Shown here one piece after another: positions 54,301 through 63,633 of a DNA stretch of 64,000 nucleotides. Under the pieces are notes generated by a model. That model worked only from the letters and a program-made list of their open reading frames with translations, did no database searches and was not told the DNA's origin. The DNA comes from Ostrinia nubilalis. Lineage: Eukaryota > Arthropoda > Insecta > Lepidoptera > Crambidae. The stretch lies in NCBI RefSeq assembly GCF_963855985.1, contig NC_087110.1, positions 5,943,001-6,007,000 on the forward strand. Reading direction: 5' to 3'. Position numbers and translations under genes: made by a program. Each line of letters opens with the position of its first letter. The first letter of the stretch is position 1.

Positions 54301-55015
54301 CTACATTATGTAATTTGTATTTAAGTAATGGAGGGGGAGCTGGAGTAGGTGATACTGATTGGGGCTTTTTTATAATAATGGGGAAGTGATCACTACCATA
54401 AGCCTCTGGAAGAACCCACCATGAGCAGAGAGATGCAAGGGAAGAGGAGCATACTGAGAGGTCAACAGCTGATCTAGGATCTTGACTAGGATATACTCGT
54501 CTTGTCGGGGATCCATCGTTCAGGACACATAAATTGAGATCCTCAAATATATCCATTAGTTGGACAGAGAAGGAATCACAGCTGTGAGCACCCCAGGCGA
54601 TATGATGGGCATTAAAATCTCCTAACAAAAGGATAGGTGGAGGAAGTGAGGAAAAAATAGTCAATAATTCTGGGATAAGAGAAGGGGTAGGGTGAGGAAT
54701 ATAAATGGACATAATAGAAATATTCATAACACGAGCAGCCACAGCGTTAAAAGCTGGACTGTGGGAAGGGATGGAGAGAAGAGAGTATGAATAGCTTTTC
54801 TTGATAAGAAGACAACAACCTCCGTAGCTATCATCTCTGTCATCTCTAAGGCAGGCATATCCTGGAACCCTGAATAGGGAACCTGGTCTCAGCCATGTCT
54901 CAGAGATGGCAGCGACTGCCACTGAGTGCTGGTTAAATAAATAAATTAGATCAGATTTTTTCGGACGGACACTTTTACTGTTCCATTGAAGAAACTGAGA
55001 AGTGTCCGTCGTCAT
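51308..55015 (-). pseudogene. LINE ORF2: endonuclease, reverse transcriptase and RNase H, one nonsense codon
   Basis: From ATG 55,015 (MTTDTSQFLQWNSKSVRPKK) the frame encodes an APE-type endonuclease ('AAISETWLRPGS', 'LLLGDFNAHHIAWGA', 'SDHFPIIIK'). Then comes the RT ('PILKPGKDASVSSSYRPIAL', 'FGFRKSRGTMDS', 'FLDIASAYDNV', 'GLPQGSVLSPILYSIYT', 'QYADDICLYAS' with the catalytic DD). An RNase H follows, with its first Asp in 'IYTDASKSSEDG'. A TAA at 52,088-52,090 interrupts the RNase H. The same frame then stays open to 51,308, with 'TGESLAILEALSYV', 'ILSDSKSCLQAL', 'LGWIPGHSGIRGNEQVD' and a Cys-rich end 'CDCGEDEGSPEHIFFNC'. Only this one stop separates it from a complete ORF2, so the copy is young but probably inactive. 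An upstream GTG at 55,102 extends the frame but has no support as a start. Confidence 0.9.
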
Positions 55016-56429
55016 CTTTATCGTCTGAGGATCGAAGAGATTTAGGTAGTTTATTGAAGAGTATATTAAGTTTTGAGGCAACGTTGTTCGGTAGTGAGTC
55101 ACTAAATTTTGAGAGAATTACCGTGAGCATTGACAGGCAATTTTCTATTAATTGGTCATTATCAGATATATCTGAGTGGGAACAACCTTGTAGTGCGCAA
55201 CCATTAGGCACCTGAGAAGGGACATCAGCAACTAAGGCCTGGTGGGCCTGCCTATCATATCCTTTGGACAGAGAGGATCTGCTGCGGGGAGTAGGTGGAT
55301 TTATCCTTCTAGATACACTTGGTGTTTGTTGGGAGGGGATTGATCTTGGGGGAGATTGTGGTGATGGGAAGGAAGCAAAAAGTGAATTACGAACTTCTTT
55401 TGCAACATCGTTATATGGTTTTCTTGTTTTAGGAGTTAAGTCTGAAGCATCTAAATATGAAAGACCTTCTTGAGACATAAGTTGCTTTATTCTTTTCTGT
55501 CTGATGTGTTCTGGGCAGTTTTTGTCTGTAGCCAGATGGGCCCCCGTGCAAAGTAGACAAGAAGATCTCTCATCAGGGACATTACAAGCGTCACCAGAGT
55601 GGCTTTGAGCGCAACGGAAACAACGGGGTTTAGAGCGGCATTGATTTTTTATGTGTCCGAACCTACAGCAATTATGGCACTGTATAGTTGGAAGCTGGTA
55701 TACTTCCACCACCAGAGAGGTGTGGAACGAGTAAATCCTATTTGGAAGTTTTTGCCCAGAAAATGTGAGGACCACAGTTTGTGTAGGAGTCCAAATAATA
55801 TTCCCATTATTAGACACCTTTCTGTTAAGACGCCTGGCTTTTAAAACAAATCCGAATCCCTCTGGGATTTCAAGAGAGTTAATAAACTCATCGAGGGTCC
55901 AATCTACCGGGACACCACGGACTAGACCCATTCGAGTAATATGGTATGTGGGAATCATGGCATTGTATTTGTTGTCTGTCAGTACCTGGGAATTAACAAA
56001 ATTGTTGGCATCTTCTCCAGAGGTGAATTCGACTGCAATTTTATTTCTGCCAACATTTCTAACGCCATCTTTGGCGATGCCTTTAATGTAGTTTCGGTGC
56101 AGAAATTGGCCAAACTTAATAGGGCGGATAGTGGTACCCGCGGCAGGGTCAGGTTCAGTACGAGAGCAATGAACAATAAATGGTCCGCTGTCGTTTGCTG
56201 TGTATATACGTGCCTCAGTGAAACTGGGGTGGGTATATAAAGATTGAATGGAGGTCGACGATTCCTCTGAGTCCCGAGTGCGTTTGTCTAAGGTTTCCTT
56301 GCCAGTCGGCTCCAACGGAAGCGTACGTTTTCTTTTCTCAACATTTCGTTGGCTCTCGTCAGAGAAAACCGGCTGAGAAATCATAGTAGCATCGTCCGGA
56401 GGATCCGGAGGTTTTGGGGGTACATCCAT
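54975..56429 (-). CDS. LINE ORF1, gag-like nucleic-acid-binding protein
   Basis: 484 codons, intact, starting with MDVPPKPPDPPDDATM. The N-terminal third is Pro/Ser/acid-rich. The middle resembles an RRM-like fold region (FVLKARRLNRKVSNNGNI). Three CCHC-type zinc knuckles follow near residues 250-310: CHNCCRFGHIKNQC, CFRCAQSHSGDAC and CLLCTGAHLATDKNC. This is the usual ORF1 architecture of I- and Jockey-group LINEs, whose product coats the element RNA. It overlaps the likely ORF2 start (ATG at 55,015) by about 41 nt in another frame, so ORF2 would be made by reinitiation or a similar mechanism. Confidence 0.9.
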   Translation of the reverse strand: MDVPPKPPDPPDDATMISQPVFSDESQRNVEKRKRTLPLEPTGKETLDKRTRDSEESSTSIQSLYTHPSFTEARIYTANDSGPFIVHCSRTEPDPAAGTTIRPIKFGQFLHRNYIKGIAKDGVRNVGRNKIAVEFTSGEDANNFVNSQVLTDNKYNAMIPTYHITRMGLVRGVPVDWTLDEFINSLEIPEGFGFVLKARRLNRKVSNNGNIIWTPTQTVVLTFSGQKLPNRIYSFHTSLVVEVYQLPTIQCHNCCRFGHIKNQCRSKPRCFRCAQSHSGDACNVPDERSSCLLCTGAHLATDKNCPEHIRQKRIKQLMSQEGLSYLDASDLTPKTRKPYNDVAKEVRNSLFASFPSPQSPPRSIPSQQTPSVSRRINPPTPRSRSSLSKGYDRQAHQALVADVPSQVPNGCALQGCSHSDISDNDQLIENCLSMLTVILSKFSDSLPNNVASKLNILFNKLPKSLRSSDDKDDDGHFSVSSMEQ

Positions 56430-56637: not shown

Positions 56638-57766
56638 GCGAATTTAAATTAATTGGTAAGTTTACAAACAAAGCAATGTCATTAGTGCAATGATATTCTA
56701 GAACTATAGATATGTTACGTTCATAGAAATTACGATTTTAATCCGTGCCGAGCTATTCCAAATTGCACACATTGACAAATGTAACTGATAAGTGAAACAA
56801 AAGATACGAAATAGCACGCAAATGAAAGAGATAGCTATAGTTTTAACGATTCTGCACTAACTAATCTATGTCCGCAGCGCACGCATCCTTATCGCTCTAA
56901 CGTCAAAACAAGATCGCTTTCTCTTTCTTAACTTGAACATGGCGCATGGCGTCTTGATTGTTTGCATAAATAATTGAAAATATAAATACTAAATAATTTT
57001 GCATAATCACATGTGGTAAGAGATCCCTTGTATTTTGTTTACTTTAGAGTCATAATTGGTACACTTTCGAAACACACACGATGGCATTTTTTATTTATTT
57101 TGGTAAGAACACAGGAACTTACGGTGTGGTACGCACGCGATTGCGCACGACGCAGGCCACACGAAGACTAAACACAAGACGTCCCAATTGGGACGTATTT
57201 GAGTATTCACAGCGCGAGCGCTTATAACATATCTGCTTTTGTTTTTATAATATCATTGCATTAGTGTCAAAAATAACTTTTTTAATTAGACTTTTTTTTT
57301 GTAAAATAACGGCTGTTGGCTAAGTGTGGCCATCCGACTGTCAAAAGAAATAGGGTTGTAAATAATAATTTTTCGTATAATCGACTGTAGTTTTTAGTTG
57401 TTCGAATTAATTAATCGTTTTAAAAGAATTATTATTTGAATATTGCTGTGTAGACTGAACTAGGATAATAATATTTTGGATGTTAATTCATAGCCAATTT
57501 GCCTTTCTAAAAACCTTAACATGCCTTTAAATTATCTCAGATACGTAGGTCTATTTTAAATGTTATTATAAACCTCCGTTATTTAATAAAAGGAGTAAAG
57601 AGATTACGTTGTGAATTTAAGTAAAATAGCATGATTTTATTCATACATGAATATCGACTAACCCCACTCAATTTCTGTAAAAATTATGATTAGTAAAAAA
57701 ATTAGAAGCTTAATCATACATCCCTATTCCATAGACAGACCGACCATCCATCATAATTTTAGCAAA
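56638..57766. other. Upstream region of the small-protein/SLX4 locus
   Basis: Pre-insertion sequence resumes here after the LINE. It is AT-rich with a GC-richer patch at about 57,120-57,230 ('gcgattgcgcacgacgcagg', 'acgtcccaattgggacgt', the latter a perfect 18-bp palindrome). 'catccttatcgctctaacgt' at about 56,884 resembles part of MITE family 2. The promoters of the plus-strand pair and, before the insertion, of the paracaspase must lie in this interval; no TATA box stands out. Confidence 0.4.
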
Positions 57767-58151
57767 ATGGCCATCGGAGTAGATACGTCAAAGTGGAAAC
57801 CAAGAAAAATTAAAGGAACTCCTGCTGCTAGATTTAGAAATGCGCTTGGTTTAGGCATTCTAACTTTTGGAATTATCAGTGGTTGCATACTACAGTAAAT
57901 ATCTGTCGTTTAACTTTGTCTTTTTAATTTCTTTGAGGTTATGATTCAGACTGTAAACAATGAAATATTTCCATTTCAGTTTCTCCAGTGCAACAGAAAA
58001 GTATCGAAAAGCTTTTGAGGTGCTATATGAAGATCCTATAGAAGAAGTAGAACGAAAGATAATGATTGCTAGTGGTCTTCCTAACCGGTCTCCAGCTACA
58101 ATAAAAAGAATCGAAAAGGAATTATCAAGGATCGACAGACCTGATACATAA
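57767..58151 (+). CDS. Small single-pass membrane protein, unrecognised family
   Basis: Two exons: 57,767-57,894 (phase 2) and a second starting at 57,989 (after ctccag) or 57,980 (after tttcag). Both acceptors keep the frame, giving 96 or 99 aa ending TAA at 58,149-58,151. I prefer the ATG at 57,767 (context agcaaaATGG) over the in-frame one at 57,686. The N-terminus MAIGVDTSKWKPRKIKGTPA is basic. Residues about 27-42 (ALGLGILTFGIISGCIL) are one membrane segment. The rest (KYRKAFEVLYEDPIEEVERK, then SGLPNRSPATIKRIEKELSR) is charged and probably helical. A basic start, one membrane segment and a small size are common among mitochondrial inner-membrane assembly proteins, but I do not recognise the family. 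It ends 3 nt before the SLX4 ATG. Confidence 0.7.
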
Positions 58152-58154
58152 GTT

Positions 58155-61100
58155 ATGAATATAGAGAGTAATAGTAATAGGTATGTTGTTTTTATGTAGT
58201 TACTGGGCTAAATGAATAAATTATTTACATAATTAACATTGTTTTATTGCAACAGCAAGAATCACAGTCCATGCAAAGTGGTGAGCAAATATTTCCAGAA
58301 CAGTCCTGTTATGGATGAGAGTTTGTCGGAATTTAAAGAGAAAAAAGGCAGTTGTAAAGGACCCAAGAACTCTCAAAAGTCAACTGAACAGCAACCAAAG
58401 AAGACAAAGCAGAAAAAGCCTCCAAAACGAATTAAAGGACAAAAAGACATTCGGACTGTTCTAAAATCTAAAAAGAACGATCAATTGACTTATGCCAAGG
58501 AGTTTGATGAAGTTTGCAAACAAGCTGGTGTTGATATAGATTCTGAACAGCTACAATTAGCTATAGCATTATCAAAGTCTTTACAATCATCGGAGGACAA
58601 TAAAAGTAGTACTAGTCAAAAGCCTTTGAGTTCTCAGGAAAGGACAAAAAAAATTCGAACCACTTTGCAAGAGTATGGATTTGCTATTCCAGAAATAAAA
58701 ATAACTAATAAGAGAAGGTTGAAAAGGCCTAGAAAGCAATACAAACTTTTACTATCAAGTGACACGGAAAAGCAACAAATTATAAGTGATAGATATTCAC
58801 AGGTGCTATTTACAAGTTCTCTCTCTAATAAGGCTCTAAATGAAAATGATATAGATTATTCGATTATAAAATGTTATCATGTTGCAACAGGAATATCTTA
58901 TGAAACTTTACAGAACAACAATATTTTGTATGTTGAAGATTTAGTTGAAAAATCTACTAGTAAAGGAAGATTGCTTAGAGACTGGGCTGATATACCAGGC
59001 AGACCAAAAAGTCCAGTCAAGCAAGAATCTACCAATATGAACTTTAGTGAAATAGAATGTTCGCAAGACGAACTTGACATTGTTCTTAGTGGAACATTGA
59101 AGTCTGCTAAAGATATTGTAAAGAAAAAAGTTAATTCATTATCAAATAACACACCTACAATTTTTATTGATGTTGATACTGATATAAATCATAGTAATAA
59201 TGATAGAACTCTGGTCACTAAAGAATCTAACAATACAGATACCATTGATTGTAAAAATGGAACTTCACTGATCTCAAATAGAGTCAGGAGTTGTTCTCCA
59301 GATATCTTTGATGATGAAGTGTCCGTAATTTTGACTGATAGTCATGATAAAACAAACAAAGAATCTGAGAAATCTATCAAACAGGATGATACTATAATGG
59401 ACTTAACAGGAGATGAACAGGATACAGAAAATGCAGTGAAAATAAATGACTGTCAACTAATACATGAAAAGAAACAAAATACAAGTGTTGTAGATTTAAC
59501 ACAAACAGATTTAAACAATCACACAGAATCTGAACAGTATCTGTTTACAAAGAAACCTAGTAACCCAGAAAAGCTGACCCAGGGTTCCCAGAACTATACC
59601 AGAAGAAACTCAGATGACTTTATGGAAATAACTGAATGTGTTGGAATTTCTGCAAAAATTAACCCCAGTCCAGCCAAAGAAAAAATCACAGCATCTCAAG
59701 ACTCAAATGATGAAGTTAGAAGGTATTCTGATGAATTTATGGAAGTCATTGCTTGTGTTGCAAAAACTTGTTCACAAGCTAGTTCAAATGAAAATCCACA
59801 CATAACATCGCAAGTTACAGACAAAACCAAAAGAAAGTCAAACGATTTTATGGAAATGACTGAATGCGTAGCTAGCACCTCTTATTCTGTTCCAAAGAAT
59901 GTTGAAACTGATATTGATCTCACACAACAATCAGATGAAAATGAAAGAACTGTGGTAGATGGAACAGCTAAGAACATAGTAGAGAATGTAGATCTGTCTC
60001 AGTCATCAAATGAAGATGAATTACCTATTGTTGAGATGAGCCAAAGTAACAAGTCATTAGATGACACTATTTTATTAAATAATGACGAAATTGATATCAT
60101 AAAACCAAAAATAGCAAATAATACAGATTCGAAACCTATTGAATTAGAAGAAACACTTGATCTATCAGATACTTCAAGTCCTGTTAAATCAGACAATTAT
60201 CTTAGGCCATCGAATCATAGCTTTTTCGACGAATTTGTGCATAATCACTCTGATGATGCTAGTACTAAAGAAACTTTAGAAAAGTCTTGTGAGATAGAGA
60301 GTCAGAATCAATTATTAGGTGATGAAAATGATAATGATGAAGTAGATTTGACCCAATCATCTAATTCATCAGTGGCAAGTAGAGAAGTTAGTGGAAACAA
60401 TAGTAGCATACAAAGTTCAAAAAATGTTGAGATTTTCCAAGATGTATCAATTGATTATGATGAAATGTTTGATGCAATATCAAAAAACGAAACTGATACT
60501 TCAAAACGAGATCTATCCCAGAACTCAGTTGCTTCTCAAATTACTGATGAGAAAGATGGCAATGTATCAGAGACATATAGCAGAAGTTCTCAGGTGTTTG
60601 ACATTTCTGATAAAGAGCTTGAGTATTCTATGAATAAATCAAGATATGAAGGAGCTTGGGGGGTTGATTTTGGTGGTATTTCAGTCATTGACAATGATTT
60701 GTCTTTACATAATCCTGGGAATATTGAAAAGGGAACTAGCGAATCTATAAACAGATCTACAAATGATAGCTTCTTGCCTGCAGTTGACATTAAAAGCAGT
60801 ATGATTAAACCAAAGAAGGAATGTATATTAAAGACACCAAATATGTTACCTAAAAATGAACTAGCTACTCCATTGAAGGCATTTACAAATGATAATGCAT
60901 TTACAGTAGACACACCTACTAGTAGTGAGTATATTCTGAAGACTGACCAGGTGACTCCGATGCTAGATTTTGCAGCAATGTCTACACCAGACAGGAATAG
61001 AGAATTAGACAAATATGGACTTAAGCCTTTTAAGAGAAAAAGAGGTAAATATATTCAAATTTACAATCTTATAAGATTATTTAATACTGTAAATGTAAGG

Positions 61101-63047
61101 GAAGATAAACTTATAATTTGTTAGTTTCACCAAACTATTGAACCAATTTGTTTTTAAAGATGACCATAAAGAAATGTTATTATTATTTTCGTTACAATTT
61201 CTTATTAAATTCTTTACTACTGCATTCCTAAAACTGGATTCTATTTCCTTCCAGCTATTCAACTACTGACCCACCTGTACAATCAAACTCATCCCGTTGT
61301 AGAATCCTGTCAAGAGGAGCTACCTTCTCCTTCCAAAAGACGGAAAACCAGCCAAGAATCGCCTAAAAATCACAAATCTCCAAGAAAATCACCAAGAAAA
61401 ATGTTGAAATCGCCGACAAAAAAATCTCAAGCAGTAGACAATTTAAACGATTGCAGTAAAGACAGTAATGTGTATGAAGTGACTAATGAAGTTCCAGAAA
61501 TAAAAGCAATCTTGTGTTCAGAAGAAGACTGGGTCTTTCAGAAACGGGAAAAGGCTAAGGTACTAGCTAGTATATTTATAACATTACTTTTTAACGAATT
61601 TTGTTTCGACTAATAGTAATAGTATTGAAATCCAAGAGTGACCTTAGATGACCCACGCTGAACTGTCCCAAACTCAATGACAGGGGGGCGCTACCATCGT
61701 TCAACTATATGGTTTCCAACATGGCAAAAATCGGAACCAGCGATCCGGTATTGACGGTGGCGCCCCGTTGTAAATGTCATAGATAGGACAGTTCAGTATT
61801 TTGGAACTATACCAATAAATTCGTCATTGTATGAAATAGTTTAGCAAGAGCGCCACCACTCGGAGAAATGTTGCACTACGATAGCACGCACCGATTCATC
61901 TTTATTGCTTCGTATCCCTGACTGCCATTAGATGGCGTTGGTTGTTAAGTAAAATATGAAATTGAAAACTAACTTCCCTAATAACAAAACTTGCCTTCAT
62001 GTGAGTTGGAAAGTTTAAAATGTCATTTGCATAACAAAGGCTAGCCAACATAGTCGCGCCACATGGTGTTGCCTAGTTTTTTTTTTTTTTTTTAGTTTTA
62101 TCATCATCATCATCATCTCAGCTATAGGACGTCCACTGCTGAACATAAGCCTCTCCCATGTTGCCCATTTGGTAGCGGCCTGCGTCCAGCGCCTTCCTGC
62201 TACCTTTATGATGTCGTCGGTTACCTTCTGTTACCTAGTTGCCTAGTTTATTGTTATTGAAACCTGTTGAACCATTCTGTCATATTCAAACCTGATTTTC
62301 ATAATTCCAGGTGCACTCCTGCCGTGTTCCATTGCATATATCGCTTCACAACTACGTGTCGTGTAGACGAAAACTATATGAGGCTATATTGCGTTACGAG
62401 CCCGTTAACATTGACGTTATACATAAGGAGTTGGTGGCCAGCGGACATCGCTACGATCCAAAGGTAAGGACTTTTCAGTACCAACGGATATATTGCTGTC
62501 TCAAAGTAGTGGTAGGGCAAGCTATATTGCGACGTGTATGTGTGCCTAGAAAAGGGCACCAATAAATAATTTAAAATTGAATTTGGACATTGAAAAGTCC
62601 AAAGAGAAAAACGTCCGTTGCAAAAAAATACAAAGACGTCGTTCATACTTTGTCATTACGCGTTTTCTTATTTCGCTATTGCTAATTTGGTTCAGTTATA
62701 AAACGCTAGATGGCGTGAAAACTTGATTTGATTTGATGAACTGTGCGATCATAAATTTTTAACTATTTGACTATTTTATTTTTGGAATAATAACCTTAAT
62801 TAAATAAACTTTGTTGTTAAGATATTAAATACTCAAAGTCATGTAAGAAACTAATACTATATTGCAATTCTGTTCACTATAATGCTTTATATTGTCGCTC
62901 TCTAGGCTAGTCTTTAATAGGTAAATTAAAACAAGTCTACAAGTCAATATTATAAAAAAATCTTTGTTTCAGGATCTTTTGAGGTACTTGGACAAGAAAT
63001 GCATAACCGTTAAAACAGCTGACAACAACGCAAGGAGTAAAAGATAA
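58155..63047 (+). CDS. SLX4: Structure-specific endonuclease scaffold SLX4
   Basis: SLX4 (MUS312 in Drosophila) is a nuclear scaffold that activates SLX1 and binds XPF-type nucleases for crosslink repair and Holliday junction resolution. Five exons fit GT-AG and phase: 58,155-58,180; 58,256-61,044; 61,255-61,559; 62,311-62,463; 62,973-63,047; 1115 aa. The tiny first exon (MNIESNSN) is chosen because its donor and phase join exactly. Exon 2 is mostly disordered, Ser/Asp/Asn-rich, with six [V/I/M/L]-D-L-[T/S] motifs and three F-M-E-x3-C-V repeats. The family signature starts at VTPMLDFAAMSTPDRNRELD with KYGLKPFKRKR and AIQLLTHLYNQTHP across the exon 2/3 join: the SAP-like domain. The SLX1-binding C-terminal helices are YEAILRYEPVNIDVIHKELV and DLLRYLDKKCITVKTADNNA. 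I see no N-terminal UBZ zinc finger (no C2H[CH] set). AATAAA at 63,104. Confidence 0.9.
61657..61800. mobile_element. MITE in SLX4 intron 3
   Basis: 'gctgaactgtccca' pairs with 'ataggacagttcagt', and 'gacaggggggcgctacc' with 'ggtggcgccccgttgt'. Imperfect TIRs, about 144 bp. Confidence 0.65.
62098..62222 (-). mobile_element. RTE-type LINE 3' end in SLX4 intron 3
   Basis: (CAT)n, 'ctataggacgtccactgctg', 'ggtagcggcctgcgtccagc' and 'ctgctacctttatgatgtcg': the antisense RTE tail. Confidence 0.75.
62483..62580. repeat. LINE 3'-end remnant in SLX4 intron 4
   Basis: 'agtagtggtagggcaagcta' and 'gaaaagggcaccaataaata' resemble the right part of the 180-300 repeat in inverted orientation. Confidence 0.45.
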
Positions 63048-63633
63048 TTAAGTTGAACATAAATCATGATAATATTTATGTAAATATTAAAATTAAACTA
63101 GTAAATAAAAATGTATTTTTTACTTTATACTGTCTACTTTATTTGCTGTTATTTTATGATAAAACACCGAAATATTTACTAAATTAGGTGATAAAATTTC
63201 CTGGATAGATAGATTAATATCCAGTTTTTTCAGTGTCTAAGAAATGATTGGTTCTATATTGGCTCACATAAAATTCTAAATCCTATTCTTTGTCTTACTA
63301 CCGATTTGTGTTCATAATAATCTCTCTTCATAATTTTATTTTTCATACTTTTTTTATTCATACATTTTTATTACTACCAACGGAGCTCATAACAGTTAGT
63401 AATCATAATTTTTTTATCAATACCGTTACTGCCAAGAACCATTTAAAATACATAATTTTTATTTTCAGATCTTTTTTCTTCATAACATTCATTGATCATA
63501 TTGTTTTAATTAATAATGTTGTTACTAAGAACATACTTCAACTCATAATGTTGTTGTTCAGAATAATTAACTTTATAACAGACATACTCGTATCTTTAAA
63601 AAAATCATATATAATTTAATTAAGTAAATAAGC
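63048..63633. other. SLX4 3' flank
   Basis: Very AT-rich. After the AATAAA at 63,104 no gene is supported. The 109-codon frame at 63,290-63,619 is Phe/Ile/Asn-rich low-complexity translation of AT-rich DNA. Confidence 0.4.

Follow-up and report, generated by a model that had tools for sequence, protein, structure and literature searches.

The small gene and SLX4 at the locus

We analysed a stretch of 64,000 nucleotides (nt) from Ostrinia nubilalis (Lepidoptera, Crambidae; contig NC_087110.1 of assembly GCF_963855985.1, positions 5,943,001 to 6,007,000), which is called the window below and whose numbering is used throughout unless another contig is named. Two conserved, non-overlapping coding open reading frames (ORFs) were found on one strand in its last part. 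The first belonged to a small gene of two exons and 99 codons with a membrane-type product, and the second, which began directly behind it, to the DNA-repair scaffold SLX4 (five coding exons, 1115 amino acids, aa). The two ORFs were contiguous in Ostrinia and linked in many other Lepidoptera. Their features are collected in Table 1.

Table 1. Positions of the small gene, SLX4 and associated signals in the window
Feature	Position	Strand	Remarks
Small gene, coding exon 1	57767..57894	+	ATG at 57767; 42 codons + 2 nt; start context CAAAATGG
Small gene, intron	57895..57979	+	85 nt, GT-AG, phase 2
Small gene, coding exon 2	57980..58151	+	ends with TAA
Stop codon TAA of the small protein	58149..58151	+	next base G
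Exon common to both genes	57980..58180	+	201 nt: end of the small coding sequence, TAA, gtt, SLX4 ATG, 26 coding nt
Spacer gtt	58152..58154	+	3 nt; 1 nt implied in Leptidea sinapis
SLX4, coding exon 1	58155..58180	+	26 nt = 8 codons + 2 nt
SLX4, intron 1	58181..58255	+	75 nt, GT-AG, phase 2
AATAAA in SLX4 intron 1	58215..58220	+	TTGTTTTATTG about 19 nt downstream; possible 3' end of a small-only messenger RNA (mRNA)
SLX4, coding exon 2	58256..61044	+	
SLX4, coding exon 3	61255..61559	+	
SLX4, coding exon 4	62311..62463	+	Slx4 Pfam domain begins here
SLX4, coding exon 5	62973..63047	+	stop TAA 63045-63047
AATAAA 3' of SLX4	63104..63109	+	probably the poly(A) signal used by the long mRNA

The small protein had 30 relatives at E<=1, of which 24 were full-length (23 of 99 aa and one of 98 aa) and six were pieces. 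All 20 relatives with a taxon label were lepidopteran, and they ranged over Eumeta, Plutella, Tuta, tortricids, pyraloids, Spodoptera, Manduca and butterflies. An alignment of 25 sequences contained 18 invariant columns at a mean column identity of 71%. Both exons matched a single place in the genome (only the best candidates were scored), and among the annotated proteins found there was no 100% match to the Ostrinia sequence. The N-terminus was basic, with seven K/R against one D/E in the first 25 residues, and a hydrophobic stretch started at residue 26 (mean Kyte-Doolittle value of 1.94 over 19 residues). There was also an in-frame ATG at 57686, 81 nt upstream of the small ATG, that opened a 27-aa N-terminal extension. 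Since all 24 full-length relatives started with MA[IV]G, this extension was probably untranslated or located upstream of the mRNA start.

The identity of the larger protein was clear from the Pfam Slx4 domain (PF09494) at residues 1050-1105 (E 4.5e-13, 49.4 bits, cut-off 24.8), and three of its matches were named mutagen-sensitive 312. Vertebrate SLX4 has BTB and UBZ domains. Neither gave a Pfam match at E<=1 in the Ostrinia protein, where they could be lost or too diverged. A relative from Schistocerca piceifrons (P0127) carried BTB (PF00651) together with the Slx4 domain, and a loss of BTB in Lepidoptera is possible. The NCBI model from the same genome, LOC135083211 (P0031; 727 aa), was 100% identical over 65% of the SLX4 query and began with the same residues as our reading. 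This model stopped early (...SREVNFPRCIN), unlike the 1115-aa reading (window 58155-60400).

The 26-nt first coding exon of SLX4 looks real, because 44 of the 101 SLX4 matches had their first residue 7-29 positions ahead of the conserved KYF motif (20 of them started with MN), and because the internal methionine Met28, the next candidate start, was lacking in nine of the 85 matches with a readable site. A few of these 44 (e.g., P0090, P0092, and P0104) seemed to read through intron sequence. The remaining 76 of the 85 had methionine at position 28; this tally left aside 16 of the 101 matches where the pattern was not matched, and matches starting at that residue were trivially counted as methionine.

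The junction between the two ORFs

The earlier note on this DNA had placed the stop TAA at 58149-58151, followed by gtt and then by the SLX4 ATG at 58155, in phase and with a 26-nt first exon, and all of these positions proved correct. The in-phase arrangement on its own carries little weight, as it is expected in one case out of three by chance. The close spacing, on the other hand, exceeded chance because the same neighbourhood recurred across Lepidoptera and near-contact was implied in a second family.

The latter evidence came from Leptidea sinapis, whose SLX4 model (P0095) had ten extra residues, MQERIYHINN, ahead of MNVDKF. The small protein of this species (P0011) ended with ARTDLPHK, and the same contig size of 1,352,413 bases was given for both entries. 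A single DNA sequence could encode both proteins over a 29-nt overlap, which left a single nucleotide between the small stop and the SLX4 ATG and put the latter in another frame (+1). No control reached an overlap of >=20 nt, whether the ends of other small proteins (0/23), random AT-rich peptides (0/2000) or shuffles of the extension (0/1000) were used. The sole other overlapping fit for Leptidea shared one nucleotide, and non-overlapping placements, which are always possible, lie beyond the reach of such a test. A pyraloid and a pierid thus very probably share the near-contact but not the frame. A pattern scan of viral_contigs for other lepidopteran DNA gave 11 pattern matches and no relatives.

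The difference in frame has consequences for another claim of the earlier note, namely that readthrough of the TAA would give a membrane-anchored SLX4. The phase of TAA-gtt-ATG in Ostrinia would permit such a product, and a second route to it would be splicing that joins the small gene in frame to SLX4 exon 2: skipping of 57980-58180, or the use of the GT after 58000 or after 58087, has this effect. The Diatraea and Danaus models, in which both proteins are fused, shared the junction GLPN|S. However, no conserved in-frame extension was found after the stop, since the frame in Leptidea was +1 and the end of the small protein was fixed, as its length indicated. The difference in frame thus takes away the chief ground for expecting readthrough, against which the TAA stop also counts, although the Leptidea frame bears on readthrough and not on splicing. 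As for splicing, the junctions of the eight fused models mostly differed and none was a plain exon skip; skipping of the middle exon, in frame in Ostrinia, was thus shown by 0/8 of them. We consider a membrane-tethered SLX4 fusion highly improbable by either route.

Conservation of the pairing across Lepidoptera

For 17 of the 30 small-protein clusters, the longest contig was identical in size to that of an SLX4 match, in a comparison that took in 94 of the 101 matches. Three of the shared contigs were only 4,037, 5,199 and 6,383 bases long, so that the small-protein exon and SLX4 lay within a few kilobases of each other; most others were megabases long and showed linkage on one contig only. 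One of the 17 pairings (P0007) joined a cluster labelled Cydia strobilella to a C. pomonella SLX4 contig. The 13 clusters without a pairing were those of Loxostege, Spodoptera, Manduca, Papilio machaon, Plutella, Galleria and seven others. In Spodoptera, Manduca, P. machaon and Plutella the two proteins were on different contigs, perhaps from different assemblies, and for Galleria there was no SLX4 match among the matches listed. Consecutive locus tags provided a further sign of adjacency in Loxostege (ABMA28_010189/010190), Chilo (evm_003242/003241) and Choristoneura (MSG28_012703/012704).

In several species the annotation went beyond adjacency and merged the two genes. In Pieris napi, isoform X3 of LOC125053044 (P0014) was the small protein and isoform X1 (P0080) was SLX4, while in Tuta both proteins (P0015 and P0041, respectively) carried a single gene name, O0L34_g1747. 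Eight of the 101 SLX4 matches (from Diatraea, Phthorimaea, Dendrolimus, Arctia, Brenthis, Leptosia, Operophtera and Danaus plexippus) were fused to the small protein at their N-terminus. Except for the junction shared by Diatraea and Danaus, these models dropped the stop and the start at mostly differing places, and we interpret most of them as the result of software that skipped over a stop codon within a single transcript. Lepidopteran SLX4 annotations were thus unreliable, with 8/101 fused to the microprotein and many starting at the internal Met28.

A probable shared transcript and the putative route to SLX4

Judging from the P. napi isoforms, the Tuta gene name and the fused models, a shared transcription unit is likely. 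The earlier note had gone further in proposing one mRNA for both proteins on the ground that there was no room for a poly(A) site between them. The linkage, and probably the shared unit, stood; the argument from space did not, because an AATAAA was present in SLX4 intron 1 and P. napi had a small-only isoform. A T/GT-rich stretch followed this AATAAA before the intron 1 acceptor, a hint that an mRNA for the small protein alone may end here. Isoform X3 of P. napi would be the expected product of such a short mRNA if the longest ORF of a transcript is what the NCBI pipeline annotates.

As to how SLX4 would be translated from a shared mRNA, AUGs at 57840, 58027 and 58062 lay between the small start and the SLX4 AUG, whose own context was GTTATGA. 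Leaky scanning was considered and found unlikely given these three intervening AUGs and the strong start context of the small gene (CAAAATGG). Reinitiation, which the earlier note had named, fits the start contexts and the internal AUGs better and is plausible, although a first cistron of 99 codons predicts a low efficiency.

Our preferred interpretation, which we hold somewhat more probable than all others together, is a conserved lepidopteran dicistronic transcription unit in which reinitiation yields SLX4 at low efficiency. A single promoter located 5' of 57767 would give a pre-mRNA spanning both genes. When SLX4 intron 1 is spliced, the resulting mRNA would carry both cistrons, and the small protein would be translated first from its strong start. 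A minority of the ribosomes would, after termination, start again at the SLX4 AUG only a few nucleotides further on, which would yield a low SLX4 output. Cleavage at the intronic AATAAA, or retention of intron 1, would restrict the output to the small protein; an unspliced intron 1 leaves the SLX4 AUG with just 14 open codons.

Several observations weigh against this interpretation. Near-contact was deduced for only one species besides Ostrinia, and the fused models may be annotation artefacts, as their junctions mostly differed. The two genes were named separately in several species, e.g., Pararge, Maniola, Cydia strobilella, Epargyreus and Battus. When 514 residues of SLX4 exon 2 were used as a query, the contigs that carried uninterrupted 99-aa small ORFs yielded no piece of SLX4; these contigs were 2775, 3671, 2244 and 1106 nt long and had no size match to SLX4 contigs. 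The intronic AATAAA had a chance expectation of 0.14 per 75 nt. Finally, DENR-MCT-1-aided reinitiation declines with ORF length according to the review PMC5972666, and a first cistron of this length should therefore keep SLX4 output low. Such an output may be acceptable for a scarce scaffold.

The main rival to the dicistronic unit is an alternative 5' end. Here SLX4 transcription would start inside the small gene (in intron 1 or exon 2), its AUG or Met28 would be the first good AUG, and the dicistronic RNA would be minor. The conservation of Met28, which has the context GTTATGG, and the separate names of the two genes in several species are consistent with this possibility. However, in the nine of 85 matches without Met28 a start must lie upstream of it. 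TCAGTY, the one insect element tried, was not commoner than chance in the window (65 seen, 69.4 expected), and its only plus-strand copy between 57767 and 58155 (at 57976) overlapped the splice acceptor. A scan for bacterial-type promoters found six against 4.2 expected from shuffles, by a method not meant for insects. We regard an SLX4 start within the small gene as a real but tentative alternative.

It is also conceivable that the two genes are simply independent neighbours with separate promoters and poly(A) sites, and that the small gene ends at the intronic AATAAA and never extends into SLX4. The AATAAA at 58215 with its T/GT-rich downstream stretch would suit this arrangement, as would the separate names. 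On the other hand, the exon 57980-58180 was continuous, so that the 5' leader of any mRNA using the ATG at 58155 would consist of small-gene sequence, except for an mRNA starting within 3 nt, and the P. napi and Tuta names, as well as the eight fused models, merged both genes. Full independence therefore seems improbable.

A stronger form of the dicistronic interpretation may also be formulated, in which lepidopteran SLX4 no longer has a promoter to itself and its translation relies exclusively on termination-reinitiation behind the 99-codon membrane microprotein, while polyadenylation in the 75-nt intron 1 sets the amount of SLX4 mRNA. We consider this form unlikely, if worth keeping in mind.

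Identity of the small protein

The earlier note had called the small protein a probable organelle membrane protein. The organelle part of this label was a guess, as searches against Pfam, PDB sequences and Foldseek gave nothing significant. An AlphaFold model of the Chilo relative had a mean pLDDT (predicted local distance difference test) of 73.7 and a pTM (predicted template modelling score) of 0.36, with helices at 19-44, 46-56, 63-73 and 81-91; because of this low confidence, the empty Foldseek result says little.

One relative, from Euphydryas (P0019), bore a UniRef label beginning 'Ubiquinol-cytochrome-c reductase complex ass'. An identity with UQCC3 was unsupported, since none of the 25 family members matched PF15141/UQCC3 at E<=10. 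The similarity of the family to a human UQCC3 sequence by hhalign was weak (probability 2.2%, P 0.021, 38 columns). The one PF15141 match of the genome lay not at the small gene but on contig C6 (exon E 4.21), and the UQCC-type label was disfavoured because the C6 protein was a better UQCC3 candidate.

A second head-to-tail array and flanking elements

The C6 protein belonged to an array of three same-strand ORFs, head to tail, in the same genome (C6:15497473-15499529). It consisted of a small membrane-type ORF, which we take to be CEBPZOS-like, a gap of 11 nt, a UQCC3-like ORF of two exons and, after an ATGA overlap, TBCC (333 aa). The first ORF had no Pfam match, and the spliced UQCC3-like protein matched PF15141 with E 6.9e-6 and 26.3 bits, below the Pfam cut-off of 33.6. 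The array is possibly a tricistronic locus and looks like an independent case in the same genome. As in the array, small membrane-type protein lies immediately 5' of a larger unrelated protein on the same strand at the SLX4 locus; the array differs in having three ORFs and other genes, and shared transcription is putative in both.

Retroelement ORFs flanked the SLX4 locus. A CCHC-type ORF1-like protein was encoded upstream (window 54975-56429, minus strand), and a downstream element (L003:2898-7974, plus strand) had an ORF1 and a 1233-aa ORF with, by eye, endonuclease, reverse transcriptase and RNase H. Just beyond the window end, two stretches (L003:700-1100 and 1930-2400) appeared by eye to be inverted copies around a (GT)n run.

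Comparison with known dicistronic genes and implications

Dicistronic genes such as Drosophila CCDC56/mtTFB1 are familiar in insects. According to PMC4528330, 159 dicistronic pairs are annotated in FlyBase, with small proteins over-represented; 45 pairs appear exclusively dicistronic, 45 also have monocistronic forms of both genes and 69 of one. Where only polycistronic transcripts were known, the stop-to-start spacing was -34 to 319 nt (PMC4528330), and the 3 nt of Ostrinia, or the 1 nt implied in Leptidea, fell within this range. The main text of that paper had no occurrence of mus312. Unlike the Drosophila class, the present pair is lepidopteran and has a spacing near zero. It appears to fit the insect dicistronic class, a type of gene organization described before in fruit flies. 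No description of the pair was found in the open-licence titles and abstracts listed, and an earlier description is possible.

The closest likeness was with Drosophila sloth1-sloth2 (PMC9681215): this too is a compact insect locus with an upstream small single-helix protein, and the sloth2 start lies 5 nt after the sloth1 stop. That locus, however, encodes two small complex III factors that are distant relatives of each other, and the case for leaky scanning there was argued from a poor first start (ACACATG) and an optimal second one (CAAAATG) (PMC9681215). Here, in contrast, the first start was strong and the second product was a 1115-aa repair scaffold with no known partner relation to the first. 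Since the order of start strengths was reversed in comparison with sloth1-sloth2, reinitiation fits better in the present case.

The pair is notable for its conservation, for the near-overlap of its ORFs and for the position of a DNA-repair scaffold behind a long cistron with a strong start. Provided that the pair really is dicistronic, a large part of an insect order would owe its SLX4 levels to ribosomes coming straight from the synthesis of another protein, and the locus would offer a natural test of animal reinitiation after a long first cistron. Should SLX4 rely solely on reinitiation, the dosage of the scaffold would be tied to how much of an unrelated protein, which may be mitochondrial, is translated.
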